From contig NZ_CP076456.1 of NCBI RefSeq assembly GCF_018866305.1, positions 1,116,001 to 1,180,000 of the forward strand: a DNA stretch of 64,000 bases. Reading direction: 5' to 3'. Below, piece after piece: positions 31,376 to 62,201 of the stretch. Position 1 is the first letter of the stretch, and every line of letters begins with the position of its first letter. The position numbers and the translations under genes are program-made. Below the pieces are notes generated by a model that was not told the origin of the DNA, searched no databases, and saw only the letters and a program-made list of their open reading frames with translations. The stretch is from Arthrobacter sunyaminii (GTDB taxonomy: Bacteria > Actinomycetota > Actinomycetes > Actinomycetales > Micrococcaceae).

Positions 31376-31420
31376 CGGGTATGCCTTACCCGTGCAGGGT
31401 TCAGCCCCGTGACTTAATCT
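31376..31420 (+). promoter_or_regulatory. Shared palindromic operator and -10 before LAL3
   Basis: CGGGTA-TGCCT-TACCCG (31376-31392) is a perfect 6-bp inverted repeat with a 5-bp spacer. It is followed by TGC and, after 22 nt, by TAATCT (31415-31420). The same layout and spacing occurs before wbaP-like 40486 (CGAGTA-GGCAT-TACTCG, TAGTCT). Confidence 0.6.
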
Positions 31421-31524
31421 GGCCGTGATCCTTGGTGAGCAATTGTTGTCCGGGGCCAATGAGGCCCCCGGAAAATTCGGCGGTCCCCCACCAGCCGCAC
31501 TCCGCACTTGTTTAGAGGTCCCTG

Positions 31525-34233
31525 ATGAGCACGCTCCTGCAGTCCGGTCCGCCCGGCGACCCCGCGACCCCGGACGGCCGGGTGCCTGGATCCCTGTCCC
31601 CGGCCGGTACCCCGTACCACCGGTCACCCGTCCCGTCTCGATCCGCCGACGCCCGGGGGAGCGCCCGCATGGCTGTGCGGGACGCCTTGGATGGATCCGG
31701 TGCAGTTATCCTGGGCCCCCCGGGCATCGGAAAAACCACGCTGGCACGGGAGGCGGTGGACCTCTGCGAGGACGGGTTTCGGGTGCACCTTCGCGGCAGC
31801 CCCCTGTCAGCACAGACCCCCTACGGAGCCATGGCCTGGCTGCTCAGCGATTTGCCCCCGCAGGATCTCGTCAATCCGGTTCAGGTCCTGCGGGCGTTGG
31901 AATCACTGCTGATCCGGCTGGCCGGCGGCCGGAGAATTATCCTGGTGATCGACAACGCCGAGGGAATTGATGATCTGGGCGTCCTCGTGACGTCGGAACT
32001 GTGCCGCCGGGGGACCGTGGCACTGCTGCTCATCTGCGGTGACCTGCTCGGCTGCCACCAGGACTACGTGCGGCTGTGGACCGACGGAACCCTGAAACGG
32101 ATTGACCTGGCACCGATGGACCTGCCGGAAACCGCGGAGCTGCTCGCCGCCGCCGCCGGAGGCCCGCTGACCACGCTGGCGCAGGAGAAGCTGTGGCAGC
32201 AAAGCAGGGGGAATCCGCTTCTGGCGGCCCTGTTGTGCAGGGACCACAAAGCGGCCAAGGCGCTGGTGCTTCGACGCGGCTACTGGACGTGGACCGGTCC
32301 GCTGGTTCATTCCGGTGAGCTTCCGGACCGCGTGGAAACAGTACTGCGCCGCTTCACCCCCGGTGAACGGCACGCCGTGGAAATTCTTGCGCTCTGCGGC
32401 GGGCTGCCGCTGGAGACTCTCCTGCAGCTGCTGCCGGCCCACACCGTGGATGCACTGGAGGAGGGATCGCTGGTGACCATTGGCGGCGGACCGGGCCAGC
32501 CGGTGCGCCTTGCCTGGAACCTGCAGCCGGCAACCATTGCAGCGAGAATCCCCTTCGGCCGCAGCCGGGATCTCTGGACCGAAGTAACCCGGGTCGTGAA
32601 TCCGCAACTGCTGAGCGGAGACGCTGCTGCCGGCATGGCCGCCTGGTCCCTCTCGGTGGGCGTTTCCCTCGACCCGGATGAAGCTCTGGCAGCCGCACGC
32701 TGGTCCAACGAAACCGGGGACGTTGACGCCGCCCTGCGGTATTCCCGTGCGGTTCCGTCCCCGCGGCCGCTGCCTCTGGTGCTGGAAGAAGCGGCCGCAC
32801 TGCGGTCCATCGGAAACCATGCACAGGCGCACCGGTGTCTTGCAGCGGCACAAACCGGCAGCGAGGCATCGCATGACCGGCACATCAGCCTCCTGACCCA
32901 GCGTGCGCTGGCAGCGGCCCGGATCCTGGACTCAACCGATGATCCGCCGGCCCTGCTGCAGCAGGCCGAACGGCTGCTCCCCGAAGACGAAGGCGCCAAT
33001 CCCGGGCCCGGCCTGAGGCTAACACTGGCACGGGCGGAGATCCTTTCGCTGGACGGCAGGCTCGGGGACTTGCCGGCGTCCCTGGGGGACGACTTTGCCG
33101 ACCCCGCTGCTCCGTCCGACCTCAGGCTGATGGCCGGTATCCGCCGGGGACAGCAGGATGCAGCTGCCGGCCGTTTTGACGAAGCACTGGAACTTGTGGC
33201 GCTGATTCGGTCCCGTCTGGCAGGAGGCATCTCGGCAGACGTGCGCACCCGGGAACAGCTCTTCCACCATCTGTTCTTCCTATTGATCCGCTGCGGCGAG
33301 CTGGGCCAGGCGCTGGCAATGACCGAACTGGTTGCCCGCCCGGGAAATGGAACAGGGCTGCGGGCCGCCGCAGGGACCGAATTGCCCGCCGGCCTGGTGC
33401 ACGCGTATGCCGGCCGCGGCGACATCGCCATGGATTTCCTGAATCCGGCCCTGGCACAGCTGGAATCGCGCGACCCGGACAACATGCTGCCGCTGGCATC
33501 CGCGGCAGCTGCCTACTCGGACTTCCTCGGTCCGGAACCCGGACGGCAGCCGGACCGGGAAGCATACGCCGAATCCGGGTACCGCACGGATCCATATCTT
33601 GAAACAGCGGTGCGGTACTTTCGGATCCTGAGTACCCCTGCCGGCACCGGCCGTACGGCGGAGCAGCTTCATACCCGTGCCGGACATGCCCGAGCTGAGG
33701 GAAACCTCCCGGATGCCCTCCTCTGCTACGGTGCGGCAGCGCTGCGGGGCAGCCGGGCGGCGGCAGCGGACCTTTCCGCTGCGGCGTCATCGGCCAACGG
33801 CATCCCCGGGCTCCTTTACCGCAATCTGGCTGACGGACTCCTGGAGAAGGACGCGGCAACGCTGATCCGGGCCGGGGAAACGGCTCTGGAGCAGTCAAAC
33901 ACCCTGCTGGCCTATGAAGCTGCCGGTGCTGCCCGCAGTTTCGCGGCCGACGGCGGCGGCCGCGCCTTGTCGCGGCGGGCCCGGCAGCTGGAGCACGTGA
34001 CCTTCCGTGAACTGTCGCCGGCCAACAGTATTGAGCACGGCCTGTCCCGGCTGGGACACTTTGAGCGGGAGCTTGCCCTGCTTGCCGCCGCAGGGGAGAC
34101 CAGCGCCCGGCTTGGGGAACGGTTCCATCTGTCAGCCCGGACTGTTGACTGGCATCTGGGCCGCATTTTCGCCCGGTTGAGTGTCTCGGGCAGAAGCGAC
34201 CTTCGAGCGGCTCTCAGCGGGAAAACTACGTAG
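31525..34233 (+). CDS. LAL-type LuxR-family ATPase regulator 3 (type A)
   Basis: A 902-residue protein. A Pro/Ser-rich head of about 50 residues precedes Walker A GPPGIGKT (64-71), and RRIILVIDNAEGIDD is the Walker B-like strand. The helical middle is followed by an HTH of the same unusual type as LAL1: HFERELALLAAAG in place of the usual Arg-Glu, and SARTVDWHLGRIF. The ATG has AGAGG eight bases upstream. It lies 204 bp after LAL2 and has its own promoter with the shared operator. It is the only regulator in the row not followed at once by a type B gene. Confidence 0.9.
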   Translation: MSTLLQSGPPGDPATPDGRVPGSLSPAGTPYHRSPVPSRSADARGSARMAVRDALDGSGAVILGPPGIGKTTLAREAVDLCEDGFRVHLRGSPLSAQTPYGAMAWLLSDLPPQDLVNPVQVLRALESLLIRLAGGRRIILVIDNAEGIDDLGVLVTSELCRRGTVALLLICGDLLGCHQDYVRLWTDGTLKRIDLAPMDLPETAELLAAAAGGPLTTLAQEKLWQQSRGNPLLAALLCRDHKAAKALVLRRGYWTWTGPLVHSGELPDRVETVLRRFTPGERHAVEILALCGGLPLETLLQLLPAHTVDALEEGSLVTIGGGPGQPVRLAWNLQPATIAARIPFGRSRDLWTEVTRVVNPQLLSGDAAAGMAAWSLSVGVSLDPDEALAAARWSNETGDVDAALRYSRAVPSPRPLPLVLEEAAALRSIGNHAQAHRCLAAAQTGSEASHDRHISLLTQRALAAARILDSTDDPPALLQQAERLLPEDEGANPGPGLRLTLARAEILSLDGRLGDLPASLGDDFADPAAPSDLRLMAGIRRGQQDAAAGRFDEALELVALIRSRLAGGISADVRTREQLFHHLFFLLIRCGELGQALAMTELVARPGNGTGLRAAAGTELPAGLVHAYAGRGDIAMDFLNPALAQLESRDPDNMLPLASAAAAYSDFLGPEPGRQPDREAYAESGYRTDPYLETAVRYFRILSTPAGTGRTAEQLHTRAGHARAEGNLPDALLCYGAAALRGSRAAAADLSAAASSANGIPGLLYRNLADGLLEKDAATLIRAGETALEQSNTLLAYEAAGAARSFAADGGGRALSRRARQLEHVTFRELSPANSIEHGLSRLGHFERELALLAAAGETSARLGERFHLSARTVDWHLGRIFARLSVSGRSDLRAALSGKTT

Positions 34234-34312
34234 ACACACGCCGCAACTTACCCTCAAACCAAGTGGTGTCCGGGCCGGATGCGGGACGAACCTGAGTAGT
34301 TGGCGCGCGTGA

Positions 34313-34357
34313 CTGGTGAACGGTACTCGTGTTTGTACTTTCTCCGGCTTCTACTCT
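34313..34357 (+). promoter_or_regulatory. Shared operator (degenerate left half) and -10 before LAL4
   Basis: CTGGTG-AACGG-TACTCG (34313-34329), then TG, then TACTCT (34352-34357) exactly 22 nt after the site. The right half and spacing match the sites at 31376 and 40210; the left half is weak. It places transcription start upstream of the GTG at 34434. Confidence 0.45.
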
Positions 34358-34433
34358 GGCCGCAGGTATAGAACGCAGCCTGTGTCCCTCGAACGCCGTC
34401 GGGTGCAGGCAATCGGAAGAATCGGGTCTCACC

Positions 34434-37298
34434 GTGCAAAACAGTCTCTCCCAGTCCTATGTGCGTCCCCAGTCAGCTGCCGGGCCGAACTCCCTGAGTC
34501 CTGTCGCATCCCTCGCCAGCGCTCCCAGGCCGGATACGGCTGGCCCTGAAGAGCGGACGCCATCCTACTTTGTGGGCCGCAGCAACGTCACCCGCACCAT
34601 TCTCGGCCGCCTGGCATCCGGCGGAGGAGCAGGATGCATCTTGGTGGGGGAAGCAGGAAGCGGCAAGACCGCACTGATCCACCACGTACTGCGCCAGTGC
34701 AGCCCCGACACGTATGTGGTCCATGTCCGCGGATCGGCCTTCTCCGGCCGGACCCCCTTCGGCGCCCTCACCTTCCTCCTCTCGGACCTGGAACCGGAGA
34801 TTGCCACGCACCCGGTACTGATCCTTCGCGGACTCACCCGGTTGATCCAGGAACGTGCTCAGGGACGTGCCGTCCTGCTGGCCGTGGACAACGGGGAAGA
34901 CCTGGATGAGTTCTCCGCCATGGCACTTAGCCAAATGGTCCTTAGCCGCACGGCAGGACTCCTGGCCTGTTTCCGCGACTTCAGCCGGGCACCGGCCGAA
35001 TTCGCCGGGCTCTGGCGCGAGGGCATCCTGTCACGGGTCGATCTGGACCCCCTGAATCTGGCGGAGACGGCGGAACTGATGTCGGCTGCACTGGACGGCC
35101 CCGTCTCGGGTTCCGCCGTCGCCCACCTGCACCGTTCCACCGGCGGCAACCCCCATCTGCTCCAGCTGGGCTGCGAGGACTACCGTGACTCGGGCAAGCT
35201 CCGCCTCAGCGGAAGCGTCTGGGTTCTTGACCGCGCCAAGGCGGCACCCGCGGGCCGTGTGGCTGAAACAGTGCTCAACCAGCTGGGCACGCTGACGGAC
35301 AGCCAGCTGGCACTGGTGCAAACGGTCGCGCTGGCAGGGTCCCTGCCCCTGGCAGCAGCACTGCACAGCGTCGCGTCCGATGAAGTGGACACCCTGCAGG
35401 AACGGGGAATTCTTGCCCTCGAACAGGGGAGCATCCCGCGGATCATGATCTCCGACAAGGTACTGGTCTCCGCCCTGCGCTCTTCAGCGGACACAGCCAC
35501 ACGGGCGAAACTGCTGCATCAGTTGCGGGACGTTGCCGCGGCTGCGGTGCCGGCCGGCGAAACCCCGGCCGCCGGTACGGACCCGCTGGCGGCGGTTCTG
35601 GACCCTGCACGGCTGGCATTGTGGCGGCTCGACGCCGGAGAGTCCCCCGACCTGGAGTCCGCTGTGGAGGCGGCACAAAGTGCCAACGCTGCGGGGGACT
35701 TCCGGGGCGCCATCCGCATCATCACCGCCTGTGAGAATTACGCCAACAGCCCGGGAGCCGTCCTTGAGCTGATGTCTGCCCACATGGCACTGGAAGACTA
35801 CGCTGCGGCGGTCGCAGTATTGGGTGCCTGCCGGGCCCGCAGCGGCGGCGCGGCACCGCGGGAAGAGGTGCTGCTGCTGATTGCGGAGAACAGGGTACTC
35901 TGCATGGCTGCCACCGGCGCGTTGTCCGCCACGGTGTCCGCAGCAGTGCTTCCTTCCGGGGCTGCCAAGAAACACGAAGAGCTGCTGGCCAAAGCCGAAC
36001 AGCGGGTGGCCGCGATCAGCAGTGCCGGAACCGTCAGCCGCAGCGAGGCCGCAGAGCTGAAGCGCAGGCTGGTCCTGGCACGGGCCGAGTGCAACTCCAC
36101 ACACGGGCGGTTCCTCGAAAACGCCGCCTTCCTCGCACCGCTGCAAGCTGAGGCAGCTTCCCAGGACAAGACCTACCGCGTCCTCACAGGCTCCTGGCTC
36201 TGCGAGGCGCTGGGGATGACAAACCGGCAGGATGAGGCAGCCGAAGTCTCCCGGGAGGTGGAGCGGCTGCTGGGCGATTCCGGAATCAGCATGGCCCACC
36301 GTACCCGTGCCTTCGCCCGGATTGTCCACGTCCACCTGGCCATTGGAGCGTTGGACAGCGCCCGCCGCCTGCTGCAGCAGCCGTCCGCGAACGGCCAGGC
36401 AGAGTTGTTTCCGGGGCTGCTCGGCGAAATTTCCGAGGGCATACTGCACGCCTATGCCGGAGAGCCGGCGCCCGCGCTGCGCTGTCTGGTCCCCGCCGTC
36501 GCGCAGCTGCGGCTGAGCGGACCGGCATCCCTGCTGCCGCTGGCCACGTCCGCAGCCGCCTATTGCCTTGCCCTGCAAAAGGACCGCGAGAATGCCGAGG
36601 CCTACCTGCAGCTCCGAGCCAAGGCGGGCGACGGCGGTCCCTGGAGCTTGCGCCGCGCCGCACGTCATTTCGCTGCCCTCGCCAACGGTGCGCTTGGCTC
36701 CCCGCAGGCTGCCGGCCGGTTCCTTGAGCTGGCCGGCCACGACCATCGAAGGGGAGCGTACTCATACGAGCTGCTGTCGCTGCTCAACGCCGCCCGGCTG
36801 GGGGATCTGGAGAACCTTGACCGGATTCTGACCGTTGCCGCACATCAGCAGGGTTCGTTTCCCCGGATGTGCGAGGTCTATGCCAAAGGCGTGGGTTGTT
36901 TCGACGCTCAGCTGCTGATCCAGGCCAGTGAGCTGGGGAAGGCCGCCGGGCATGTGCTCTTCGCCTCCGAGGCGTCGGAACGTGCGCTCGCCGTGGCGTC
37001 GGGAGCGGGAGACCGTGCAACGGTGAGGCTGATTCACCGCAGCCGCCGCGGGCCCGACGTCGCCGCCTTTGAAGGTTCCGACTCCGCCGACGAGTACCTC
37101 AGCGCCCTGACCTTCCGGGAACGGTCGATCGCCCGGATGGCCGCCGCGGGAACGAGCAATAAAGCCATTGCCGCTGATTTGAACATCTCGGTGCGAACCG
37201 TGGAGGGTCACTTGTACCAGGTCTATTCCAAGCTCCACGTCGGCAGCAGGCGTGAACTGGCCAAAGTCATCGCTGAAAAATCGGCGGTACGGCCATGA
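34434..37298 (+). CDS. LAL-type LuxR-family ATPase regulator 4 (type A)
   Basis: About 954 residues. A Ser/Pro-rich head precedes Walker A GEAGSGKT (72-79); RAVLLAVDNGEDLDE follows. The segment RGSAFSGRTPFGAL groups it with LAL1 and LAL3, yet its C-terminal HTH is canonical (LTFRERSIARMAAAGTSNKAIAA, VRTVEGHLYQVYSKLHV). The frame is open from a GTG at 34329, but the putative -10 at 34352-34357 lies inside that extension, so GTG 34434 is preferred; the spacing from GGAAGA is long, so the start is uncertain. Its stop overlaps the LAL5 start by four bases. Confidence 0.88.
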   Translation: MQNSLSQSYVRPQSAAGPNSLSPVASLASAPRPDTAGPEERTPSYFVGRSNVTRTILGRLASGGGAGCILVGEAGSGKTALIHHVLRQCSPDTYVVHVRGSAFSGRTPFGALTFLLSDLEPEIATHPVLILRGLTRLIQERAQGRAVLLAVDNGEDLDEFSAMALSQMVLSRTAGLLACFRDFSRAPAEFAGLWREGILSRVDLDPLNLAETAELMSAALDGPVSGSAVAHLHRSTGGNPHLLQLGCEDYRDSGKLRLSGSVWVLDRAKAAPAGRVAETVLNQLGTLTDSQLALVQTVALAGSLPLAAALHSVASDEVDTLQERGILALEQGSIPRIMISDKVLVSALRSSADTATRAKLLHQLRDVAAAAVPAGETPAAGTDPLAAVLDPARLALWRLDAGESPDLESAVEAAQSANAAGDFRGAIRIITACENYANSPGAVLELMSAHMALEDYAAAVAVLGACRARSGGAAPREEVLLLIAENRVLCMAATGALSATVSAAVLPSGAAKKHEELLAKAEQRVAAISSAGTVSRSEAAELKRRLVLARAECNSTHGRFLENAAFLAPLQAEAASQDKTYRVLTGSWLCEALGMTNRQDEAAEVSREVERLLGDSGISMAHRTRAFARIVHVHLAIGALDSARRLLQQPSANGQAELFPGLLGEISEGILHAYAGEPAPALRCLVPAVAQLRLSGPASLLPLATSAAAYCLALQKDRENAEAYLQLRAKAGDGGPWSLRRAARHFAALANGALGSPQAAGRFLELAGHDHRRGAYSYELLSLLNAARLGDLENLDRILTVAAHQQGSFPRMCEVYAKGVGCFDAQLLIQASELGKAAGHVLFASEASERALAVASGAGDRATVRLIHRSRRGPDVAAFEGSDSADEYLSALTFRERSIARMAAAGTSNKAIAADLNISVRTVEGHLYQVYSKLHVGSRRELAKVIAEKSAVRP

Positions 37299-40063
37299 TC
37301 CCCGGAGCGATTCCCGGACCAGGGCGGGCACCGGCGCTGTTCGGCAGGGACCGCGAGCTTGCGGAAATCACTTCCCGGCTGCTCGAGCCGGGGCTGCGCG
37401 GCGCCGTGGTTATTGGAGAAGGGGGAATGGGAAAGTCTGCACTGGCAGATCAGGTCCTGGAACGGTTGAACGGAATCGTCACGCCGTCCTTCATCCACGG
37501 CAGCCCCGTTTTGTCCCGGTTGCCCTACGGGGTGCTCTCCGCGTATCTCGAAACCGCCGGACCGGAGGATATGGAGTCACCGCTTGCAGTGCTTCGGACC
37601 ATCCGCCGCCATTTCCGCAAGCTCAGCGAGGTGGGAAGCGGGCAGCCGCTGCTGGTCATCGACGACGCCCAGTTCCTCGATGAAGCCAGCGCCCACGTGG
37701 TGACGCAGCTGGCCATGTCCGGGGAGCTGAGGCTCCTGATCCTTGCGCAGCCGCGTGCCCGACACATCCATGAACTGCTGTCCCTGGCCCGGGACGGGCT
37801 GCTGGCGCGCATTGACCTGGGGGCACTGTCCCGGGACGCGGTTCACGAAGTCTGTGAAGGTGTCCTTGACGGACCCGTGCTCCGGGCCTCCAGTGCCGTG
37901 CTGGCAACGTTATCCGGCGGTAATCCCCTCTATCTCAAGGCGTTGCTCGCCCAGTCACGCCGGCTCGGCCACCTCGCCGAAGGCAACGGCGCATGGTTCC
38001 TGCGCCGCGAACCGGACGGACTGGACTCCGCCGTGATTGACCGGGTGAAGAGCCAACTGCTTACCCGGAGTCCTGAAGAGCGCGACACCCTGGAGACCCT
38101 CGCCCTGGCCCAGCCCCTGCAGCGTTCGGTGCTGGCGGCAGTCTGCGGCCCGGCCCCGGTCCACGCCCTGCTGGCTGACGGGATTCTGTGCGCCGTGCAG
38201 GGGCCGGCTGAAATGCTCCGGCTGGCCCAGCCCCTTCACGCTGACGTGATCCGGTCCCTGGTGCCGGCTGTGCGCAGTGCGGCAATCCGTACAAAGGTGC
38301 TGGACTGCCTGCCGGACCGCGAGGGGGCAGAGGCCGGTGATCCGTCCGTAAAGACGGCCTGGCTGCGCCGGCTGGAATGGGCCCTTGACTGCGGTGAAGG
38401 GATCCCCGACGCGGAGCTGCTGCAGGCGGCACGGGCAGCGAACGACGACGGCCAGTGGCCTTTGGCGGTCCGCTTCGGCTCCGCCGTCCGCGACGGCTCC
38501 TGCCTCGCGGCGGCACGGGTGGAAACCGCAGCTGCGTTGATGGAAACCGGGGGCTTCGCCCAGGCCGGTGACCTGCTGGAAGGCATGCTGGAACCGGGAC
38601 AACCAACCCTGGCCCAGGATGAAGAAACCCTCACCCGTGCGGTGCTGGCCACCGTCCGTCTGGACAACCGGTCGGGGCTGAACGAAGGGGAGCTGATGGC
38701 TCTTGCTTCCACCTGGGTTGCGGCCGCCGGCGAATTGTCAGCCAGGCTCGGCGGTACCGGGAAGCCGCCGGCTTCGGTTGAGGACGGGGCTGAGGTGCTT
38801 CGCGTTCTGGCGCTCATGGCGGCGGGGAACTATCCCGAGGCACGGGACCGGCTCACCGAACTAACGAAAGCTCCGCAGCCTCAGGCCTCCGGGCTGCCGG
38901 CACTGGTGGCCGCGGTCTCCCACGGGCTGCTGGCGGAACTCCTGGTGTCGGAAGGGCGGATCAGCAGCGCGCTGGTGCACTCGGGCACGGCGCTGGATCT
39001 GATCAAACGCCTGGGTGGTCTGCTGCAGGCATACTGCGGTGCCATGCTGGTGCGTCACGCCCAGGCACTGCTGCACGGAGGACGCTTCAGTGAACTCGAA
39101 CGCGTTCTGGCGGCCAAGCTGGAGGGCACCACCAAGCACCTGATCGCGCACGGCGGCACCCTGGGCGTCTTCGAGGGAGCGTTGGAGATTCACCAGGGCC
39201 GGTTGCGGGAAGGGCTTCAAAGCCTGCATCCGGCAGTGGAAGCCCTGCGGATTTCCGACCCGGAAAAACTCCTGCCCTATGCCCTGGGGCTTGCCGGCTA
39301 TGCCTCCACCGTGGTGGGGGACCAGGACCAGACAGCCCGGTATGCCAAGGAACTTAGCAGCCTTGCCAGCACCGGGTCCCGGCCGCTGTGGCTGGTGAGC
39401 CAGGCATATGCGGCTGCGGCGTTGGCGTCATCCGAACCGGATGCCCGCGTTCCGGCAACACTGGCGGAAATCGCTGAACAGGCCCGGACTGAGGGTCTGC
39501 TGGCGGCGGAAAAGGACATCCTGGCACTGTGCCTCGCCGTGGGGGACCTGTCCCAGGCATCCCGGCTGCAGGAGGTCAGTGCGGCCTTTGAAGGCGGTGA
39601 GGCGCAGGCATTGAACGCCTATGCCGGTGCGGTGGCTTCCGGCAACCCGGATCTCATGGTTGCGGCAGCGGATGAAGCAGTGCGCCACCGCAAATACCTC
39701 CTTGCCGTGGAGAGCATCGGGCACGCCATCAGGTTCTACGGCACGCACGGCAACCTGCGCCGGCAACGGGCCCTGATCCAGCAACTGAGAAGGCGGCGCG
39801 GGGAGCTGGCGGGCGTGACCGTGTCCTACCTGAGCCCGTCCCTGCACCTGGTCCGGCTGACCCGCCGCGAGCATGAAATTGTCGATTTGCTGCTCGCCGG
39901 GGCCAGCACCCGGGACGTGGCGGCACACTTCACTCTCTCGCAGCGAACGGTCGAAGGCCATGTGTACCGCATCTACGTGAAGCTGGGTATCAGCCGCCGC
40001 GCAGATCTTGAAGCCGCCTACCGTGCACTGGAGCCGGGAACGAGTTCGGCGGCCCACGAATAG
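37295..40063 (+). CDS. LAL-type LuxR-family ATPase regulator 5 (type B)
   Basis: A 922-residue protein with Walker A GEGGMGKS (41-48), Walker B PLLVIDDAQFLDE, a helical middle and a canonical LuxR HTH (LTRREHEIVDLLLAGAS, QRTVEGHVYRIYVKLGIS). It is closest to LAL2. The ATG overlaps the LAL4 stop (ATGA), so the two are translationally coupled. A strong terminator follows, which separates the regulator row from the exopolysaccharide operon. Confidence 0.9.
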   Translation: MIPGAIPGPGRAPALFGRDRELAEITSRLLEPGLRGAVVIGEGGMGKSALADQVLERLNGIVTPSFIHGSPVLSRLPYGVLSAYLETAGPEDMESPLAVLRTIRRHFRKLSEVGSGQPLLVIDDAQFLDEASAHVVTQLAMSGELRLLILAQPRARHIHELLSLARDGLLARIDLGALSRDAVHEVCEGVLDGPVLRASSAVLATLSGGNPLYLKALLAQSRRLGHLAEGNGAWFLRREPDGLDSAVIDRVKSQLLTRSPEERDTLETLALAQPLQRSVLAAVCGPAPVHALLADGILCAVQGPAEMLRLAQPLHADVIRSLVPAVRSAAIRTKVLDCLPDREGAEAGDPSVKTAWLRRLEWALDCGEGIPDAELLQAARAANDDGQWPLAVRFGSAVRDGSCLAAARVETAAALMETGGFAQAGDLLEGMLEPGQPTLAQDEETLTRAVLATVRLDNRSGLNEGELMALASTWVAAAGELSARLGGTGKPPASVEDGAEVLRVLALMAAGNYPEARDRLTELTKAPQPQASGLPALVAAVSHGLLAELLVSEGRISSALVHSGTALDLIKRLGGLLQAYCGAMLVRHAQALLHGGRFSELERVLAAKLEGTTKHLIAHGGTLGVFEGALEIHQGRLREGLQSLHPAVEALRISDPEKLLPYALGLAGYASTVVGDQDQTARYAKELSSLASTGSRPLWLVSQAYAAAALASSEPDARVPATLAEIAEQARTEGLLAAEKDILALCLAVGDLSQASRLQEVSAAFEGGEAQALNAYAGAVASGNPDLMVAAADEAVRHRKYLLAVESIGHAIRFYGTHGNLRRQRALIQQLRRRRGELAGVTVSYLSPSLHLVRLTRREHEIVDLLLAGASTRDVAAHFTLSQRTVEGHVYRIYVKLGISRRADLEAAYRALEPGTSSAAHE

Positions 40064-40091
40064 CTGCACCCGCAGACAGACGGACATCCTG

Positions 40092-40125
40092 CCGGCCCCG
40101 GATTCGCACTACCGGGGCCGGTTTT
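40092..40125 (+). terminator. Rho-independent terminator after LAL5
   Basis: CCGGCCCCGG, a ten-base loop, then CCGGGGCCGG followed by TTTT. The 10-bp stem is perfect. Confidence 0.85.
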
Positions 40126-40209
40126 CTGCGTCCCCGGAACCATCCCCGGGCGTCCCTCCAAGTAGTGCTAGGTAAAGCTCCCGCAGAGGGCGAAGTCGCG
40201 CTGCGGACT

Positions 40210-40254
40210 CGAGTAGGCATTACTCGTGCCCGCCATTTGAGCCGCTCCTAGTCT
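40210..40254 (+). promoter_or_regulatory. Shared palindromic operator and -10 before the exopolysaccharide operon
   Basis: CGAGTA-GGCAT-TACTCG (40210-40226), then TGC, then after 22 nt TAGTCT (40249-40254). No good -35 is present: that region lies directly below the palindrome, as expected for an activator-dependent promoter. The arrangement is the same as before LAL3. Confidence 0.6.
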
Positions 40255-40485
40255 TGGTTTTGTTGATTGGTTGTTGTTACCGGCTGCGCCTCTCTCAGCG
40301 CAGGTAGTGCGGATATTCCCAGCGGATACTGCCCACCTCCAGGCCCGTCTTGAACCAGTCATCCGGCGCCCCAGGCGCCGGCCCCCGAGCGGGGCCGACG
40401 GCGTCGAAGCCTCTTGAGACCAAGGCTTCCCCCCAGCCGCCGTCGGCCCTTTCGGAAGATTTCGCAGCGTCTAGGAGAGTCTCGG

Positions 40486-42021
40486 ATGACAGATGTCAAA
40501 GTTGCTGGGCCGAGACCGATCCAGGCCCCGCCTGCACCCTTCACCTTCCCCAGTTACAAGAGCTCCGGCGCCACGGCCCTGGCCACCGGTGACAGAGCCC
40601 GCTGGGTTAGCAGGTACCGCAGAATCCTCTTGGCCTTTGACCTGGCGGCTGTAACGCTGGCCGTGGCAGTGGCCCACCTGGCGCGGTTCGGGGTGGCACC
40701 GGAATTCATGTCCGGCGGCGGCCCCAGCGTCAACATCTCCTACGTCGCCGTGTCCGCCGGCATCTGGGCGGCCTGGCTGCTGGCCCTGGCGGTCTACCGG
40801 ACCCGTGACCCGCGGATACTCGGAACCGGGGTGGACGAGTACAAGCGTGTCATCAACTCCACGGTCATCCTGATGGGGCTGATTGCTGTGTTCTGCCTCG
40901 TGTTCCAGGTGGACATCTCCCGCGGGTACTTCGCACTCGCCTTCCCTATTGGTTTGGGCGGCCTGATCCTTTGTCGATTCATCCTCCGGCTGTGGCTGGC
41001 AGACCAGCGGGCCAAAGGCCGGTACCTGTCCACAGTCATCATTCTGGGACGGCCCAAGGACGTCAGATATGTGGCAGCACAGATTCAACGCCAGAAAGGA
41101 TCGGGATACCGGGTCATCGGTGCAGCGCTAACCAGTCCCGGGCACTGCGAGGTGGGAGGCAGCGGCAACCAGATCCCCGTGATCGCCGACCGGAACACCG
41201 TAGTGGACGCCGTGCGGCGCCTGCGGGCGGACGCCGTCATTGTGGCAGGCCGTATGAAGGGCCACAGCGCCTACGTGCAGGAACTGGGCTGGCAGCTGGA
41301 GGAATCGGCCACCCAGCTGATTCTCACTACCGGCCTGACCAACGTGGCGGGTCCGCGAATCCATACCCGCCCCGTTGAAGGCCTTCCCCTGATGCATGTG
41401 GAACTGCCGCAGTACGCCGGCGGAAAGCATGTCCTCAAGCGCGGACTGGACATGCTGCTTTCCGGTGCCGCGCTGCTGGTGCTGATTCCGGTCTTCGCGG
41501 TGTTGGCCCTGCTCATCCACAGGGACAGCCCCGGGCCCGTGATTTTTCGGCAGGAGCGGGTGGGCCGCGGCGGCGAACCGTTCGAAATGCTCAAGTTCCG
41601 GTCCATGGTGCAGACAGCCGAGGATGACCTGGCCGGACTCCTGGACCGCAACGAAGGCGCCGGCCTGCTCTTCAAAATGCAGCACGATCCACGCGTTACC
41701 AGCGTTGGGCGGTGGATGCGGAAGTACTCCCTCGATGAGCTGCCGCAGCTGTGGAACGTCTTCCTGGGACACATGTCCCTGGTCGGTCCCCGGCCGCCGC
41801 TCCCGCGTGAAGTGGCCCAGTACGACGGCGCCGTCCGCCGGCGGCTCTACATCAAGCCCGGCCTGACCGGCATGTGGCAGATCAACGGACGGTCGGAACT
41901 CGACTGGAAGGACGGAGTGCGGCTGGACCTGTACTACGTCGAAAACTGGTCGCTTGCCGGCGACCTCATCATTCTCTGGCGCACGGTGCAAATGCTCCGC
42001 CGCCCAGTGGGCGCATATTAG
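40486..42021 (+). CDS. Exopolysaccharide polyprenyl glycosylphosphotransferase (WbaP/CpsE-like)
   Basis: The priming enzyme of a Wzx/Wzy polysaccharide pathway. It moves a sugar-1-phosphate from a nucleotide sugar to undecaprenyl phosphate. Four or five membrane segments and a CoA-binding-like central region precede the C-terminal bacterial sugar transferase domain: KRGLDMLLSG, a membrane segment, PVIFRQERVGRGGEPF, FKMQHDPRVTSVG, SLDELPQLWNV, GPRPPLPREV and KPGLTGMWQINGRSEL. The ATG at 40486 has AGGAGAG before it; the frame is open from 40414. At 511 residues it is a normal length. It is the first gene of the operon and comes right after the operator. Confidence 0.93.
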   Translation: MTDVKVAGPRPIQAPPAPFTFPSYKSSGATALATGDRARWVSRYRRILLAFDLAAVTLAVAVAHLARFGVAPEFMSGGGPSVNISYVAVSAGIWAAWLLALAVYRTRDPRILGTGVDEYKRVINSTVILMGLIAVFCLVFQVDISRGYFALAFPIGLGGLILCRFILRLWLADQRAKGRYLSTVIILGRPKDVRYVAAQIQRQKGSGYRVIGAALTSPGHCEVGGSGNQIPVIADRNTVVDAVRRLRADAVIVAGRMKGHSAYVQELGWQLEESATQLILTTGLTNVAGPRIHTRPVEGLPLMHVELPQYAGGKHVLKRGLDMLLSGAALLVLIPVFAVLALLIHRDSPGPVIFRQERVGRGGEPFEMLKFRSMVQTAEDDLAGLLDRNEGAGLLFKMQHDPRVTSVGRWMRKYSLDELPQLWNVFLGHMSLVGPRPPLPREVAQYDGAVRRRLYIKPGLTGMWQINGRSELDWKDGVRLDLYYVENWSLAGDLIILWRTVQMLRRPVGAY

Positions 42022-42072
42022 CCCGATCCGATCCGGCTTCGGCTGGTCTCATCTCTACAGAAAGCGGTAATC

Positions 42073-43041: not shown

Positions 43042-43044
43042 GCC

Positions 43045-45017: not shown

Positions 45018-45037
45018 ATCCGGTGCCGTGCCCCGGC

Positions 45038-45826: not shown

Positions 45827-45832
45827 TAACAA

Positions 45833-45838
45833 AGGATA
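45833..45838 (-). promoter_or_regulatory. Leaderless -10 element of the SGNH hydrolase gene
   Basis: TATCCT on the minus strand, six bases (TTGTTA), then ATG at 45826, with no ribosome site. Confidence 0.5.
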
Positions 45839-45905
45839 ACCGAGCGGTCTCAAATTGAATGCTCTGCCAAAACAATAAGATTACCTGCTTCAGGGGGGAA
45901 AGTAC

Positions 45906-51495: not shown

Positions 51496-51501
51496 GCACA
51501 C

Positions 51502-51556: not shown

Positions 51557-51570
51557 CGTAAACCGATGTC

Positions 51571-53879: not shown

Positions 53880-53991
53880 GACGTGTGCTTTCTGTGCGTT
53901 GGAACATTCAGAGATTGACTGCGCCCCTCCTTCAGGCGATTCACGGTTGGCGGTGCAACTATGCTGTGTTGCCGGTGCAGCCCGTCCCGGC

Positions 53992-56900
53992 CTAGGGACC
54001 GAAGACGAGGGTCAGCACCGGGCGGCGGGTGGAGGAGGCTTCTTTGGTGTAGAACCACGCGTTGTCCGAGCCCACACTGGTGATGCCCAGGTCAACGGAC
54101 TGGGACAGCATGGCGGACACGGCGGCGGGATCCAGGTCAACGGTGTACGGACTGTTCGCCGCAACCGGGGAGAGGGTGCCCAGCGCCCCGGAACCCAGGG
54201 AGGGCCGGGTGTTGTAGGTGGTTCCGGCTTCCGTCCAGCTGCCGGTCACTCCCTGAACGGTGTGCTGGTCCGCCGACCCGCCGTAGGACTCCGAGGTGGT
54301 GTACAGGCGCAGAGTGGCCGAGAGCAGGCGCATGCCGGCCGGCACCTCGGTGCCCGGGGTGAACCGCAGGTAGGAGGTGTAGGCCAGGCTTCCGCGGGAG
54401 GCCATGGAGACGGCGCTTCCGTGAGTGCTGTTGGGAGCGCCCTGGTTTACGTAGGTGTCAGCATCCGGTGTCAGGGACAACGTCACCGGCTCGGCCGGCG
54501 GCGCGCCGGCCACGGTTGCGGTCACCTGGTCCGAGGCGGTGCCGGTGTTGCCTGCAGCATCGATCGCCACCACCCGGTAGTAATAGGTTCCCGCCGCCAG
54601 ATCGGCGTCGCTGTGGGAGAGGACGGAAGCTGCGGTGGTGGTCAGCAAGGTGGCGTCCGACGGCGTGAAGCCTTCAGCAGTGGACCGGTGCACGCGGTAG
54701 CCGGTCACGGCAACGTTGTCCGCGGAGGCGTTCCAGCTCAACGTGGTTGTTGCCCCGCTGACAGCAGCCGCCGCACCGGTGACCTTGTCCGGAGCCGCCG
54801 TGTCCGGCACGGGTACCGGCGCGGGAATTCCGCCGCCGGCCGTGAAGTGCTGCTCCACCTGTCCGGCGCTGAGGGCCGTGGGGTACGCGGAGAACTCGTC
54901 TATGGCGCCGGCAAAATAGTTGGGGACGGTCCGGGCCGGAAAACCGGGAATCGTCGGGTTCGCCGCGACAGCTGGGAGACTGTCTCCGCCTACCCGCCAC
55001 GAGCCGATATAGGTTTGCGCCGCAGCCGTCCGGCTGGACCCCACAGCCTTGCCGTCCACGTACAGGGTGGCCCCTGCCGGTGTTTGGGTTACGACGGCGT
55101 GATGCCAGGCATTGTTGTTGAAGGTCCCGGCGGTGGTCACGGCAACCCGCTCATTGGCGTCATCAAGGACGGCGTAGACGAGGGCGCCCGTTGTCGTCAT
55201 GTACAAATGGCGGTCCACGGTGCCCGTGCTGTTTCGGGTGCCTTTGCGGTCGGGCTGGCCGGAAGCGAAGCCCATAATCTGGCCGCCCTTCACGGTGTCG
55301 GTCTTGAACCAGACCTCGGCACTGAAGGTGGTGGGCGCCGGATAGCGCTGCTGTCCGGAAACCTGGTCGTCAACGCCGTCAAACAGGCCCGCGGTGCTTC
55401 CCTGCACTGCACCGGGGGCGCCGGCGAGCAGGGGGCCGCCGAAGGCCACGCCCCGGTTGTTGCCCGGTGAGCTGTCTGCCGGAGCGGTGGCCCTGCTGTC
55501 ATCCAGGCGCCAGTAGGTGCTGGCGCCGTCGTCGAGGACGGCCTTCGGATAGGCCTGCGTGGTGGTGGCCGTAGTGAGGTGGACCTGGCCGGAAAGCGCG
55601 CTGGTGTTGGTTCCGTCGCTTGCCTGCACCCGGTAGCTGTACGCGGTGCCCGGGGATGCCGTGCGGTCAGTGAAGGAGAGCTGGGGGGTGTCGAACCAGG
55701 TGGAGTTCCCGGAGACGGTGCCCAGGGCGGTGGAGCTGCCGTTGCGGTACACACTGTAGGTCAGACCCGAGTCGTCATTGTCCACGCCCTGCGTCCAGCG
55801 GATCTGGTTCTGGCCCGCGGCCAGGCTCACGGCGCTCACGTTTGCCGGTGTCCCGGGGGCTGCCGAGGCGGGGCCGGGACCGAAGCGGGTCAGCCCCTGC
55901 TGCGCAGTGCCGTTGGTGGTGGTGAACTCGCCGGCAACCCACAGCACGTCGCCGGTGCCCTTGTCGGTGACGGCCAGGGCGCGCGGGCCCAGACCCTCGC
56001 CGGTGCCGTCATTGGTGTCCGGGCTCCAACCGAGGAACGGATAGGGATTGTCGATGTCTTGTGCGGAGAGGTGCTTGCGGGTGCCGTCGGCAAAGCCGTT
56101 CATTCCGGAGCAATCGTGCACGTGGTGGCCGGAGTAGAGCACATCCTTGTATGGCAGCACCGCCTGGGTGGCTCCTTGGCAGCTGTCTTTCCAGATCTGT
56201 TCGTAATTGCCGCTCAGGGACAGCCGGGCCCGGCCGTCGAAGGACCGCCCGCCCATGCCTTCGCCGGCCACGTAGAAGCTGGTGCCGTCGCTGGTGATGT
56301 CCTTGACCACGGCCGAGGTGGGGATGTAATCGGCGGCGGGGTAGGCGCGCATCGTGGCGCCGGAACTTTTGTCCACCACGGCCATGGCCCGTGATTCGGT
56401 GCCGTTGACCGTGCTGAAGTCGCCTGCCAGCAGGACCTCGCTGCGGCCGTCCGGCACGTCCAGTGCCCGGCCCACACCGTCGGCCGCCGGTGCCCAGGGC
56501 AGGAGGGTTCCGGCGGTGTTCACGGCGGCGAACCGACTGCGGGACGTGCCGTTGACAGTGTTGAAGTCACCGCCGAAGTAGACCGCGTCGGCGGTGGCGG
56601 CGATGGCGCGGACCGTGCTGCTGACCGTGCCGGGGCGGAAGGTGGTGTCCACCGTGCAGCCGGGAAGGTTGATGGCGGCCAGGCGGTTGGCGGTGACACC
56701 GTTCACCGAGGTGAAGTTGCCGCCCACGTACAGCTTGCTGCCGTCAGGAGAAACATCCATGGCACGCACGGTGGCGCCGGTTCCGCCGGTGAAGGACAGG
56801 GCGCAGGAGGTGGGGGAGCCGGTGTAGGCGTCAAAGGCGGCAAAGTTCACCGCTGCCTGCGATTGGCTGCTGCCTGCGGTGGTTCCGGGCGGACGGACCT

Positions 56901-57099
56901 GCGTGAAGGTGCCGCCGACGTACATGACGCCGTTGGCTTCCGCCATGGCCCAGGCGATGCCGTTGGTTTGCCAAGTGGGAAGCGCAACGGCGGAAAAGGC
57001 TACGCCCGGCGACAGTGCCGAAGCAGGAGCGGCGAGGGCAATCAGGGCAGCTGCGGCGAGACCCGCAGCCGAACACATCGCCGCAATTTTTTTATGCAC
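53992..57099 (-). CDS. Secreted beta-propeller/FN3/LamG protein 1
   Basis: A 1035-residue secreted protein. The signal peptide is about residues 1-28 (ending APASA). The N-terminal ~370 residues hold delta-60/DUF5122-like propeller repeats with motifs such as LYVGGNFTSVNG and VYFGGDFNTVNG. A fibronectin III domain (about 405-505), a LamG/concanavalin-like domain (about 510-740, FDGVDDQVSGQQR), a second FN3 (about 760-855) and a C-terminal DNRLRE-like beta domain follow. No sortase motif or anchor is visible. The GTG at 57099 is preferred over 57111 because AGGTGG sits nine bases upstream. It probably binds glycans at the surface. Confidence 0.85.
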   Translation of the reverse strand: MHKKIAAMCSAAGLAAAALIALAAPASALSPGVAFSAVALPTWQTNGIAWAMAEANGVMYVGGTFTQVRPPGTTAGSSQSQAAVNFAAFDAYTGSPTSCALSFTGGTGATVRAMDVSPDGSKLYVGGNFTSVNGVTANRLAAINLPGCTVDTTFRPGTVSSTVRAIAATADAVYFGGDFNTVNGTSRSRFAAVNTAGTLLPWAPAADGVGRALDVPDGRSEVLLAGDFSTVNGTESRAMAVVDKSSGATMRAYPAADYIPTSAVVKDITSDGTSFYVAGEGMGGRSFDGRARLSLSGNYEQIWKDSCQGATQAVLPYKDVLYSGHHVHDCSGMNGFADGTRKHLSAQDIDNPYPFLGWSPDTNDGTGEGLGPRALAVTDKGTGDVLWVAGEFTTTNGTAQQGLTRFGPGPASAAPGTPANVSAVSLAAGQNQIRWTQGVDNDDSGLTYSVYRNGSSTALGTVSGNSTWFDTPQLSFTDRTASPGTAYSYRVQASDGTNTSALSGQVHLTTATTTQAYPKAVLDDGASTYWRLDDSRATAPADSSPGNNRGVAFGGPLLAGAPGAVQGSTAGLFDGVDDQVSGQQRYPAPTTFSAEVWFKTDTVKGGQIMGFASGQPDRKGTRNSTGTVDRHLYMTTTGALVYAVLDDANERVAVTTAGTFNNNAWHHAVVTQTPAGATLYVDGKAVGSSRTAAAQTYIGSWRVGGDSLPAVAANPTIPGFPARTVPNYFAGAIDEFSAYPTALSAGQVEQHFTAGGGIPAPVPVPDTAAPDKVTGAAAAVSGATTTLSWNASADNVAVTGYRVHRSTAEGFTPSDATLLTTTAASVLSHSDADLAAGTYYYRVVAIDAAGNTGTASDQVTATVAGAPPAEPVTLSLTPDADTYVNQGAPNSTHGSAVSMASRGSLAYTSYLRFTPGTEVPAGMRLLSATLRLYTTSESYGGSADQHTVQGVTGSWTEAGTTYNTRPSLGSGALGTLSPVAANSPYTVDLDPAAVSAMLSQSVDLGITSVGSDNAWFYTKEASSTRRPVLTLVFGP

Positions 57100-57111
57100 G
57101 GCTAAAACCAC

Positions 57112-57347
57112 CTATTAACTGGGGACAGGCCCGCGGCCCGAAACTGAATGGAAGCGTATCGCCGCCCGGCTGCGCGTCCCACGGTGGCCTTTACTCGAGT
57201 TCCCCGGTCGGTTACCCGCCAGTATCTTCTCTCTACTCATGTTCTGCCGGCAGCTACTTGAATAGGCCCAAATCGCTTTACTGGCTCCGGGACTGCACCC
57301 ACGATGGACAAGTATTTGAATGGTCGACAAGCAGGAGTTGAAAAAAC
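57112..57347. other. Divergent promoter region between LamG protein 1 and the cytidylyltransferase gene
   Basis: It has three right-half copies of the shared motif on the plus strand: TTACTCG (57191-57197), TTACCCG (57212-57218) and TACTCATG (57234-57241). The last is followed after 23 nt by TAGGCC. No full palindrome is present, so this is a weak candidate member of the same control group. Confidence 0.3.
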
Positions 57348-59284: not shown

Positions 59285-59305
59285 AACCGTCCCGGGACAC
59301 TGGGG

Positions 59306-59857
59306 TCAACCGGAAACGCTTCGTGTCCGCCGTCGGGCAGTGAAGGCACGACGACGTCGGCGCCGGACGGCGGTGAGCCACCTCGCCGCCGCCGCGGCTG
59401 CCGCGCCCAGCAACGCACCGCAGGAGTTCAGCAGCACGTCCCGGACATCCCCCTGCCTGCCGGGCAGAAACAGATCCTGGAACCCCTCCACCCCGGCAGT
59501 GAGCGCGGCGCACAAAAGCACCGCCAGCCACCACCGCCGCACCGGCAGGAGCGCTGCCGCCAGCATGCCCAGCGGGATGTAGAGCAGCACATTCGCCAAG
59601 GATTCCACTGCCTGATAGTCCACCCAGACGGGGAGTCCGTGGCCCTGCAGGCGGCGGATCAGCCGCAGAATGGTGCCGTATAACTCTCTGTCGACCGGCG
59701 CAGGCCACAGCAGCACAGCCCCCATCCCGGCCAGGACAACGGCGGCGGCCGCGAGGAGGGCGGTGCGGCGCCAGCCGGGGTGCCCGTTACCCACAGTGGT
59801 GCCCGGGACAGGACTCAGGCGGCAACTACCGGCGTCCCTGCTGGTTGTGGTTGGCAA
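59306..59857 (-). CDS. VanZ-family membrane protein
   Basis: A 183-residue protein with four membrane segments. ANVLLYIPLGMLAAALL and GVEGFQDLFLPGRQGDVRDV fit the VanZ fold (VanZ proteins confer low-level teicoplanin resistance in some hosts). The last 20 residues are strongly basic. Its start lies 32 bp inside the end of the LamG 2 gene on the same strand, so it is probably co-transcribed. The role in this cluster is unknown. Confidence 0.82.
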   Translation of the reverse strand: MPTTTSRDAGSCRLSPVPGTTVGNGHPGWRRTALLAAAAVVLAGMGAVLLWPAPVDRELYGTILRLIRRLQGHGLPVWVDYQAVESLANVLLYIPLGMLAAALLPVRRWWLAVLLCAALTAGVEGFQDLFLPGRQGDVRDVLLNSCGALLGAAAAAAARWLTAVRRRRRRAFTARRRTRSVSG

Positions 59858-62072
59858 CTTGAGCCGGGGTCAGAGCGGTGGGATAGATCGCGAATTCGTC
59901 AATGGCGCCCTTGAAGTGCCGGCTGGTCGGAGCACTGGGCCAGGTGGACGGAATCGAATCTCCGCCGATCCGCCAGGATCCAAGACTGACGGTGTTCGCC
60001 GAGACTGTGTTGGAGGCAACCCGCACGCCGTCAACGTAGAGCACCATGCCGCCCGGACCCTGGGTGGCCACCACATGGTGCCACGCGTTGTCGTTGTAGC
60101 TCGCGGGGGAGGTCACCACCACCCGGGTGCCGGTCCAGACGCCGAAGACGAGCTTGCCGGCGTCGCTCATGTACACGTGGCGGTCATAGACGTTGCTGTA
60201 GCCAAGGAGGTTTCCGTTGCGGCGGGGCTGCGCGTTGCCGAAGCCCAGGATCTTTCCGCCGGTGGTGGTGTCGGTCTTGAACCAGGCTTCGGCGCTGAAC
60301 ACGGTCGGAGCACTGACGCGCTGCTGGCCGTAAATCATGTCATCAACGCCGTCAAAGGTGGCCGCGCGGTTGCTGTCGCTGCGCAGCGCCGAGGTGGTTC
60401 CCCCAATGGCGGCACCGAGGTTGGGCAGGCCCATCTTGTTTCCGTTGGAGGAGTCGGCGGCCGCGGCCTGGGAGTCGCCCAGCCGCCAGTAGGTGGTGGC
60501 GCCGTCGGCCCGCACCATGGCCGGATAGGGGGCAGCCGTACTGGCGGTGGTGATCTGTGCCTGAGCGGACAGGGGGCCGGTGCGGCCGCTGGGATCGCTG
60601 GCCTGCACCCGGTAGGTGTAGGTGGTGCCCGGCACCGCTGTGGTGTCGGTGAAGGAGGCCTGGGGCAGGTCCCACCAGCGCGACGACGAGTTCACAGTGG
60701 CCAGCGGGGTGGCGGAACCGTTGCGGTAGATACGGTAGGTGAGCTCGGAATCGTCGGGGTCGGAGGTGGACTGCCACCGGATGGTGTTCTGGCCGGAGGC
60801 GCGGGACTCGGCGCTGACAAACCGCGGCGTTCCGGGGCCGGCGGTGCCGGGGCCGGGACCGAACCGGGTCAGGCTCTGCTGCGCGGCACCGTTGACGGTG
60901 GTGAATTCCCCGCCGGTCCACAGGATGTCCGTGCCGTTGCCGGCGGTGGTGTGGGTCAGAGTGCGCGGCCCGATGCCTTCACCCTGGCCGTCATTGGTGA
61001 CGGGGTTCCACTGCAGCATGGGCGAAGGGTTATTGATGCTCTGTGCGCTGAGGTGCACCCGCGGTCCGTCGGGAAAGGAGTTCATGCTGGAGCAGTCGTG
61101 TGCGTGGTGCGCAGCATAGAGGGTCGCGCCGTAGACGGAGACCGCCTGCGTGGCGCCGAGGCAGGTGTCCCGCCAGACCTGGTTGTAGGTGGTCAGATCC
61201 AACCGGGCGCGGCCGTCAAACACGCCGCCGCCGGTGCCCTCGTTGCCGATGTAGAAGCTGGTGGCGTCGGAGTCGATGGACTTGACGCTGGAGGTGCGCG
61301 GAATGAAGAAGTTGGGGTAGGTGCGCACGTTGGCGCCGGAGGTGCCGTCCAGCACTGCCAGGGCCTTGGAATCGGCGCCGTTCATGGTGAGGAAATCACC
61401 GCCGGCCAGCACGGTGCCCCGGCCGGCCGGAGCGTGCAGCGCCCGCACGGGCTGGTCCGCGGCCGGAGCCCACGGCAGCAGTGTTCCGGTGGAGGATACT
61501 GCCGCCAGCATGCTGCGCGTTGCGCTGCCCGCTGTCTTGAAATCGCCGCCCAGGTAAATGGCGCTCGACGTGGCTTCGATGGCCCGGACGGTGGCGGACA
61601 AGCCCGGCGGCCGGAAGTTGGTGTTCACGGTGCAGCCGGGCAGGTTGATGGCCGCGATGCGGCTGGTGCCGACGCCGTTGACGGTGCTGAAGTTCCCACC
61701 GATGTAGAGGGTGCGGCCGTCGGGGGAGACATCCATGGCCCGCACCGTGGCGCTGCCGCCGGTCACGGACAGGGAACAGTTGATCGGGTTGCCGGTGTAG
61801 GCGTCAAAGGCGGCAAAGTTCACCGCGCTTCGGGTTCCGGCGCCCCCGGCGGCTACCCCGGGCGGACGAATGGCGGTGAAGGTGCCGCCCACGTAGACCA
61901 CGCCGTTGGATTCGGCCATGGCCCAGACAATGCCGTTGGTCTGCCAGGTGGGCAGGTTGGTGGCGGAGAAGGCCACTCCCGGTGACAGGGCGGCCGACGG
62001 CGGGGCCAGACCAATCAGTGAGGCTGCCGCGAGCAGAATGCCGGCCAGAACAGCTGTAATCTTCTTGCGCAT
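59826..62072 (-). CDS. Secreted beta-propeller/FN3/LamG protein 2
   Basis: A 748-residue paralogue of the protein at 53992. The signal peptide is about residues 1-28 (ending PPSAA). The mature start LSPGVAFSA and the sequence LPTWQTNGI.WAMAE.NGV are nearly shared with protein 1. Propeller repeats (YVGGTFT, YIGGNFSTVNG), one FN3 (about 405-500) and a LamG domain (about 505-745) follow. It lacks the second FN3 and the DNRLRE end of protein 1. The open frame extends to 62219, but GGGAG before the double ATG fixes the start at 62075 or 62072. A member of the shared operator group lies about 115 bp upstream. Confidence 0.85.
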   Translation of the reverse strand: MRKKITAVLAGILLAAASLIGLAPPSAALSPGVAFSATNLPTWQTNGIVWAMAESNGVVYVGGTFTAIRPPGVAAGGAGTRSAVNFAAFDAYTGNPINCSLSVTGGSATVRAMDVSPDGRTLYIGGNFSTVNGVGTSRIAAINLPGCTVNTNFRPPGLSATVRAIEATSSAIYLGGDFKTAGSATRSMLAAVSSTGTLLPWAPAADQPVRALHAPAGRGTVLAGGDFLTMNGADSKALAVLDGTSGANVRTYPNFFIPRTSSVKSIDSDATSFYIGNEGTGGGVFDGRARLDLTTYNQVWRDTCLGATQAVSVYGATLYAAHHAHDCSSMNSFPDGPRVHLSAQSINNPSPMLQWNPVTNDGQGEGIGPRTLTHTTAGNGTDILWTGGEFTTVNGAAQQSLTRFGPGPGTAGPGTPRFVSAESRASGQNTIRWQSTSDPDDSELTYRIYRNGSATPLATVNSSSRWWDLPQASFTDTTAVPGTTYTYRVQASDPSGRTGPLSAQAQITTASTAAPYPAMVRADGATTYWRLGDSQAAAADSSNGNKMGLPNLGAAIGGTTSALRSDSNRAATFDGVDDMIYGQQRVSAPTVFSAEAWFKTDTTTGGKILGFGNAQPRRNGNLLGYSNVYDRHVYMSDAGKLVFGVWTGTRVVVTSPASYNDNAWHHVVATQGPGGMVLYVDGVRVASNTVSANTVSLGSWRIGGDSIPSTWPSAPTSRHFKGAIDEFAIYPTALTPAQVANHNQQGRR

Positions 62073-62155
62073 CATGATCTCCCGCCTGGGTGCCCCCAGC
62101 ACCATGTGTGTGCCCCAGCGGCACCTGCGGGTGCAGAGAGCGCCCGCTAAGAAAA

Positions 62156-62201
62156 GGTTTAGCCGCTGCGCCCGGGGGAGAGCATGAGTAGGGGTTACTT
62201 G
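62156..62201 (-). promoter_or_regulatory. Shared operator before LamG protein 2
   Basis: On the minus strand CAAGTA-ACCCC-TACTCA (62201-62185) is followed by TGC and, after 23 nt, by TAAACC (62161-62156). The palindrome matches the sites at 31376 and 40210 in length, spacer and downstream TGC. The -10-like hexamer is poorer and one base further away. Confidence 0.45.

Follow-up and report, generated by a model that had tools for sequence, protein, structure and literature searches.

Why should a single surface-glycan locus carry five STAND regulators, and how does its control survive when the glycan genes themselves are exchanged? Both questions become testable in the Arthrobacter sunyaminii DNA analysed here, a stretch of 64,000 nucleotides hereafter called the window (G000:C1:1116001-1180000; genome 3.91 Mb, one contig), which encodes five LAL regulators (LAL1 to LAL5), a polysaccharide operon and two LamG proteins (LamG1, LamG2). 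The reading favoured here, with a probability of roughly 0.7, is that a locus-dedicated activator, most likely at least one of LAL2, LAL4 and LAL5, acts in a MalT-like manner and drives LAL3, LAL4-LAL5, the operon, LamG1 and perhaps LamG2. DNA recognition by actinobacterial LAL/STAND proteins is poorly defined (cf. SCO6993, accessible text of PMC9628970). The present locus yields one such code: an operator with half-site arrays, which conservation across 29 genomes defines, which held-out evidence in the genome of the window supports, and which offers DNA targets for the five tandem LALs.

An earlier note on the window had described four 17-bp sites, three of them 5' of LAL3, of LAL4-LAL5 and of the operon (LAL3, LAL4 and operon sites) and one at 62185-62201 (LamG2 site), each followed at a fixed distance by a putative -10. 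On re-reading, positions, letters and distances were all as described (Table 1), TG directly follows all four sites (31376, 34313, 40210, 62201), and none of the four shows a good -35 box, again as the note had said. In 300 dinucleotide shuffles of the window in 1-kb blocks, the pattern CRRGTA-N5-TACYYG, found twice in the window, had a mean of 0.003, and the note's composite pattern of dyad and spaced -10, found three times, had a mean of 0; the observed number was reached in 0/300 shuffles for either pattern.

Clustering at this locus was examined across the whole genome. The 3.91 Mb contain RRGTA-N5-TACYY 11 times, with 3 of these places inside the 64-kb window, and RAGTA-N5-TACTY 4 times; the reversed form of the first pattern occurs at 36 places, its letters, and hence its expectation, differing from those of the forward pattern. 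None of the 8 RRGTA-N5-TACYY places outside the window carries TG plus TANNNT at 21-23 nt in its flanks. Such counts suggest clustering without deciding it and were set aside as sole evidence. The better test is a held-out, sequence-only model of 49 positions, trained on 37 sites from relatives out of 45 non-duplicate sites scoring >=12.9; G000 and its nearest relative G021 were excluded entirely, along with one site from G015 and two from G026. Its first three matches in the 3.9-Mb genome are the operon, LAL4 and LAL3 sites, in that order, bearing out the clustering predicted by the note; ranks 4 and 5 stand at E 0.63 and 0.86 and complete the five matches at E<=10.

Over 79 genomes, with filters tightened to a degree at which weak matches may be missed, the model gave 64 matches at E<=0.02, with about 1.6 expected by chance. 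Among 29 same-genus genomes, 57 of 59 such matches lie within the LAL-cassette locus (including a second site in G026 and one inside the G012 cassette), as do 44/44 at E<=0.001, from 24/29 genomes; since many of these are training sites, the figures show confinement and not independent discovery.

The sites are also conserved in relatives, as the earlier note's proposal implied. LAL homologues were found in 28/28 congeners searched (5 to 10 matches per genome), LAL3-LAL4-LAL5 being adjacent in all 28, and 11 of 14 named records among LAL5 matches in GTDB genomes are Arthrobacter, including A. gandavensis, A. citreus, A. luteolus and A. koreensis. LAL1-LAL2 are separated from LAL3-LAL5 in G016, G017, G022 and G023; in G021 they are on a different contig. 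The LAL4 site, with TACTCG or TACTCA and TANNNT at 22-23 nt, is present in 29/29 genomes; the operon site is strong (score >=13) in 21 of 27 genomes having a PgT gene after LAL5, and the LAL3 site in 19 of 24 scored.

The palindrome, which the earlier note took for the shared unit, is not the whole of the operator as read from sequence; same-strand upstream half-sites appear to belong to it too, largely in helical phase. Promoter alignments reveal further RRGTA half-sites upstream that share the orientation of the operator. Across 77 promoters of five classes, the sense form [AG][ACG]GTA occurs upstream 173 times versus about 53 in shuffles and its antisense form 37 times versus about 33, counts that are not independent and have no probability attached, because the promoters are related by descent. 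These statistics excluded the near-duplicates G015, G021, G026, G027 and G028, sites scoring <10.9 (operon sites of G005 and G023, LAL3 site of G009) and the LamG2 site of G018, missed by the selecting pattern. Recurrent distances are 20/21, 53-55 and 86 bp in LAL4 promoters, 41-43 and 51-55 bp in operon promoters, 21, 42/43 and 63/64 bp in LamG1 promoters, 22 and 33 bp for LAL3, and 21/22 bp for LamG2. With 10.0 bp per turn the phase vector is 0.42; it rises to 0.67 with 10.5 bp and to 0.73 with either 10.75 or 11.0 bp.

Within 1.16 Mb of locus sequence, 116 direct half-site pairs are spaced at 21 bp, whereas each of the other spacings between 8 and 39 gives 8-49 pairs. There are 26 triples at 20-22 bp, of which 24 belong to 12 LamG1 promoters, each having two that overlap; control spacings gave 1 (15-17 bp) and 0 (25-27 bp). 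The LamG1 promoter holds the clearest array of all, found in 12/12 genomes with the window's cassette type, and LamG1, unlisted in the earlier note, replaces the gene at 62201 as the better LamG target. In the window, the upstream copies of the LAL3 promoter are limited to CAGTA and CCGTA (32, 47 and 54 bp), and no upstream half-site was found in the LamG2 promoter.

Table 1. Regulators, predicted promoter elements and cassette genes of the window, in window coordinates.
Feature	Positions	Strand	Remark
LAL1	25909..28602	+	AAA + GerE; helix-turn-helix (HTH) RTIDWH
LAL2	28630..31320	+	HTH RTVEGH
LAL3 operator, palindromic CGGGTA-N5-TACCCG, CGGGTATGCCTTACCCG	31376..31392	+	third-best model match, E 0.045
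Putative -10 TAATCT, LAL3 promoter	31415..31420	+	22 nt past site; TANNNT at 22-23 nt in 19 strong LAL3 sites
LAL3	31525..34233	+	HTH RTVDWH
Upstream half-site GAGTA, LAL4 promoter	34294..34298	+	20/21-bp half-site in 24/24 LAL4 promoters analysed
LAL4-LAL5 operator, asymmetric CTGGTGA-N4-TACTCG, CTGGTGAACGGTACTCG	34313..34329	+	second-best model match, E 0.002
LAL4, open frame	34329..37298	+	HTH RTVEGH
Putative -10 TACTCT, LAL4 promoter	34352..34357	+	22 nt past site
LAL5	37295..40063	+	HTH RTVEGH; overlaps LAL4 end
Half-sites AAGTA and AGGTA, operon promoter	40160..40174	+	51 and 41 bp upstream of the operator's own half
Polysaccharide-operon operator, palindromic CGAGTA-N5-TACTCG, CGAGTAGGCATTACTCG	40210..40226	+	best model match, E 4.2e-8
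Putative -10 TAGTCT, operon promoter	40249..40254	+	22 nt past site
Polysaccharide operon	40486..51495	+	polyprenyl glycosylphosphotransferase, epimerase, glycosyltransferases, Wzy-like, CDP-alcohol transferase, Wzx-like
LamG1	53992..57111	-	Laminin_G_3, fn3, CBM96 protein
Putative -10 TACGCT, LamG1 promoter	57153..57158	-	22 nt past 17-mer
LamG1 promoter-proximal 17-mer CGAGTA-N5-CACCGT	57181..57197	-	
LamG1 array AAGTA, GAGTA, GGGTA, GAGTA	57192..57259	-	from 57259, 57238, 57217, 57196; 21-bp steps
LamG2	59826..62219	-	Laminin_G_3 protein; open frame covers the 62201 site, real start probably near 62076
TAAACC, putative -10 of LamG2	62156..62161	-	23 nt past site; does not fit TANNNT
LamG2 site CAAGTA-N5-TACTCA, CAAGTAACCCCTACTCA	62185..62201	-	weakest case
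SufS-type cysteine-desulfurase gene	62300-63673		downstream border of cassette

If the putative LAL4 promoter is right, the real LAL4 start must lie downstream of 34357. All five LALs (896-989 aa) carry AAA_16 or AAA_22 plus GerE, the domain make-up of LAL/STAND-LuxR regulators, and their recognition-helix regions are of two kinds, RTVEGH (LAL2, LAL4, LAL5) and RT-V/I-D/E-WH (LAL1, LAL3). Composite sites recur in LAL loci of three other genera (two in G032, one in G035, one in G046 by the half-site pattern). Among 15 LAL C-termini read in G032, G034, G035 and G046, 13 have RTVEGH, one RTIEGH and one RTIESH. The RTVEGH kind would be the better candidate binder because composite sites occur in 3 of these 4 other-genus loci without a local WH-type LAL, an argument that covers the LALs at those loci, not LALs elsewhere in their genomes. 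The sites might instead be bound by another GerE-type or other regulator encoded elsewhere, controlling LALs and cassette alike: this kind of dyad is common to many LuxR/NarL-type proteins (accessible text of PMC9628970), and nothing here ties it to one protein. Such a regulator would, however, be expected to have targets elsewhere too, whereas the sites are confined to the LAL locus and recur in the LAL clusters of G032, G035 and G046, which makes a remote regulator unlikely. A single regulatory system for LAL genes, polysaccharide operon and LamG protein, the core of the earlier note's proposal, is well supported at the sequence level, because whole-genome specificity, conservation with synteny and the other-genus composite sites all point to it; the proposal is not borne out for LAL1-LAL2, no matching site having been found before LAL1 in the scored gaps, nor in its choice of LamG target, the 62201 site being the least conserved.

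The geometry of the sites bears on the direction of control. If TANNNT is the -10, the 17-mer covers about -51 to -35, with its centre near -43, which would fit activator dependence of a class II-like kind. Lux-box promoters of LuxR-type activators have a GTA...TAC dyad centred near -42 and overlapping the -35; here, by difference, the core is N5, the site is 17 bp and direct half-sites lie upstream, and no acyl-homoserine-lactone system is implied. A LAL acting as repressor, or as mixed repressor-activator covering the -35, would also suit a site that overlaps the -35 region, and the Streptomyces LAL SCO6993 both represses and binds its own promoter (accessible text of PMC9628970). Repression is nevertheless distinctly improbable, activation being favoured because there is no good -35 box, the spacing is fixed at 22-23 nt and phased half-sites lie upstream. 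Two conserved blocks at a fixed distance could in principle be the -35/-10 pair of an alternative sigma factor; the usual pair has starts about 23 nt apart, TACTCG and TANNNT start 28-29 nt apart, and the first block is often palindromic with upstream copies, so this explanation is very unlikely. Chance resemblance, to which the mere four sites of the window might lend colour, is scarcely credible; the shuffles, the held-out ranking and the presence of the LAL4 site in 29/29 genomes refute it at the operon, LAL3 and LAL4 sites, a refutation that does not extend to the LamG2 palindrome.

In the activator mechanism proposed, a promoter-proximal half-site (TACYCG plus TG) would lie just upstream of the -35 position, with a TANNNT -10 at 22-23 nt, and one or more same-orientation RRGTA half-sites upstream, mostly whole helical turns off, would complete the operator. 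On sensing its signal, an RTVEGH-type LAL would oligomerise as MalT does, and the oligomer would bind the half-sites cooperatively; with LAL4-LAL5 among the targets, the system would control itself.

MalT, a STAND protein that activates the maltose regulon in E. coli, is likewise a large NB-domain protein with a C-terminal GerE HTH, and its cooperative binding of several boxes is described as depending above all on multimerisation (accessible texts of PMC4381067 and PMC10427625). Its operators have several same-strand boxes, as found here upstream of the promoters and most plainly in the four 21-bp-spaced copies of LamG1. The half-site here is RRGTA and not the MalT box GGA[TG]GA (accessible text of PMC9628970), and the inverted promoter-proximal pair, the five tandem paralogues and the surface-glycan target also differ from MalT. 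IniR, regulator of mycobacterial iniBAC, is similarly an actinobacterial STAND-LuxR protein dedicated to an envelope-related operon, but a single regulator, and the accessible text on it lacks the terms palindrome, direct repeat and binding site (PMC5760070). SCO6993 of Streptomyces coelicolor resembles the present system in binding short palindromes, including at its own promoter, but is a repressor; in the accessible text of its paper no phased array is described and a consensus is said to be unpredictable (PMC9628970). No LAL of the window reaches the NCBIfam cut-off for MalT, IniR or AbsR2: against 537 bits for MalT, LAL2 scores 34.6, LAL4 25.5 and LAL5 25.0, LAL1 and LAL3 not being listed, and against 750 bits for IniR, LAL2 scores 37.6 and LAL5 29.9. 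No paper on this locus or motif was found in the open-access library searched. By its domains this multi-LAL system, with half-site arrays and tied to an exchangeable surface-glycan cassette, is of the LAL/STAND kind, with an operator code unlike the MalT box.

Several observations weigh against control by a locus-dedicated activator in its full extent. No matching site precedes LAL1 in 24/24 scored gaps (best composite scores 9.4-11.7, no shared match), so the LAL1-LAL2 unit shows no visible sign of the same control. The LamG2 site is absent from the five genome matches of the held-out model at E<=10, and its GTA half is kept in 9/9 aligned LamG2 promoters, its palindrome in G000, G021 and G003 only; it is the least conserved of the four sites. 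The best operon site of G005, of G017 and of G024 is a degenerate one that has TTGACT or TTTACT where TANNNT would stand, and G009, G017, G022 and G023 have no model match at E<=0.02 in the 79-genome scan. At the same threshold, two same-genus matches (G020:3063759, G013:232439) fall outside the LAL-cassette locus, and of five other-genus matches (one in G029, one in G032, three in G046) only G046:C9 is in a LAL cluster, those of G029, G032:C18, G046:C3 and G046:C13 lying outside LAL loci. G034 has LAL genes and a palindrome but no composite site. The helical phase fits slightly better at 10.75-11 than at 10.5 bp, and the common descent of the promoters, noted above, also counts here. Matches at G032:C8 and G034:C2, with no LAL or cassette-protein homologue nearby at E<=1e-8, are unexplained, as is G037.

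The sites persist through exchanges of the cassette downstream. This cassette, which lies between LAL5 and the desulfurase gene (window 40414-62219), varies between species: the window's type, with genes for Wzy/Wzx-like proteins, Wzz and LamG1, occurs in 12 of 29 genomes and other layouts in 13, while 2 have PgT only (G017, G023) and 2 have none (G019, G020). Between LAL5 and the desulfurase gene, G019 retains a perfect palindrome, TGC and TATGCT at 22 nt, and G020 has no such palindrome. In G026 a second PgT gene just past the desulfurase gene has its own site (G026:C6:513754, E 3.4e-7). Tentatively, and with the odds against it, the five tandem STAND proteins with their two HTH kinds might form a regulator committee, possibly binding phased arrays as mixed oligomers and serving as the fixed reader of a plug-in glycan cassette. 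If so, any cassette placed between LAL5 and the desulfurase gene would fall under the same DNA code, and regulators and operators would outlive the sugar that they control, giving a serotype-like switching locus run by a STAND ATPase array.

Further features of the locus concern its other promoters and genes. No consistent composite site was found before Wzz, the 53133 gene, CTPtr or GDPD. After LAL5, G004, G005, G016, G017, G023, G024 and G025 carry a half-dyad in degenerate form, joined to TGC or TGT; 22 nt on stands TTGACT, TTAACT or TTTACT and not TANNNT, perhaps the promoter in another arrangement. Homologues of LAL1, LAL3, LAL4, LAL5, PgT and GDPD are each in several pieces in G013 (L068, L108), through decay or sequencing error. 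The gap between the 420-aa protein gene and LAL1 (window 25200-25909) holds, in at least seven genomes, the block CGAGACTGGGCCACCCC-CAT, which is unlike the operator sites. The 420-aa protein itself (window 23938-25200, minus strand), divergent beside LAL1, has no Pfam or NCBIfam match, and its homologues adjoin LAL clusters in other genera too.

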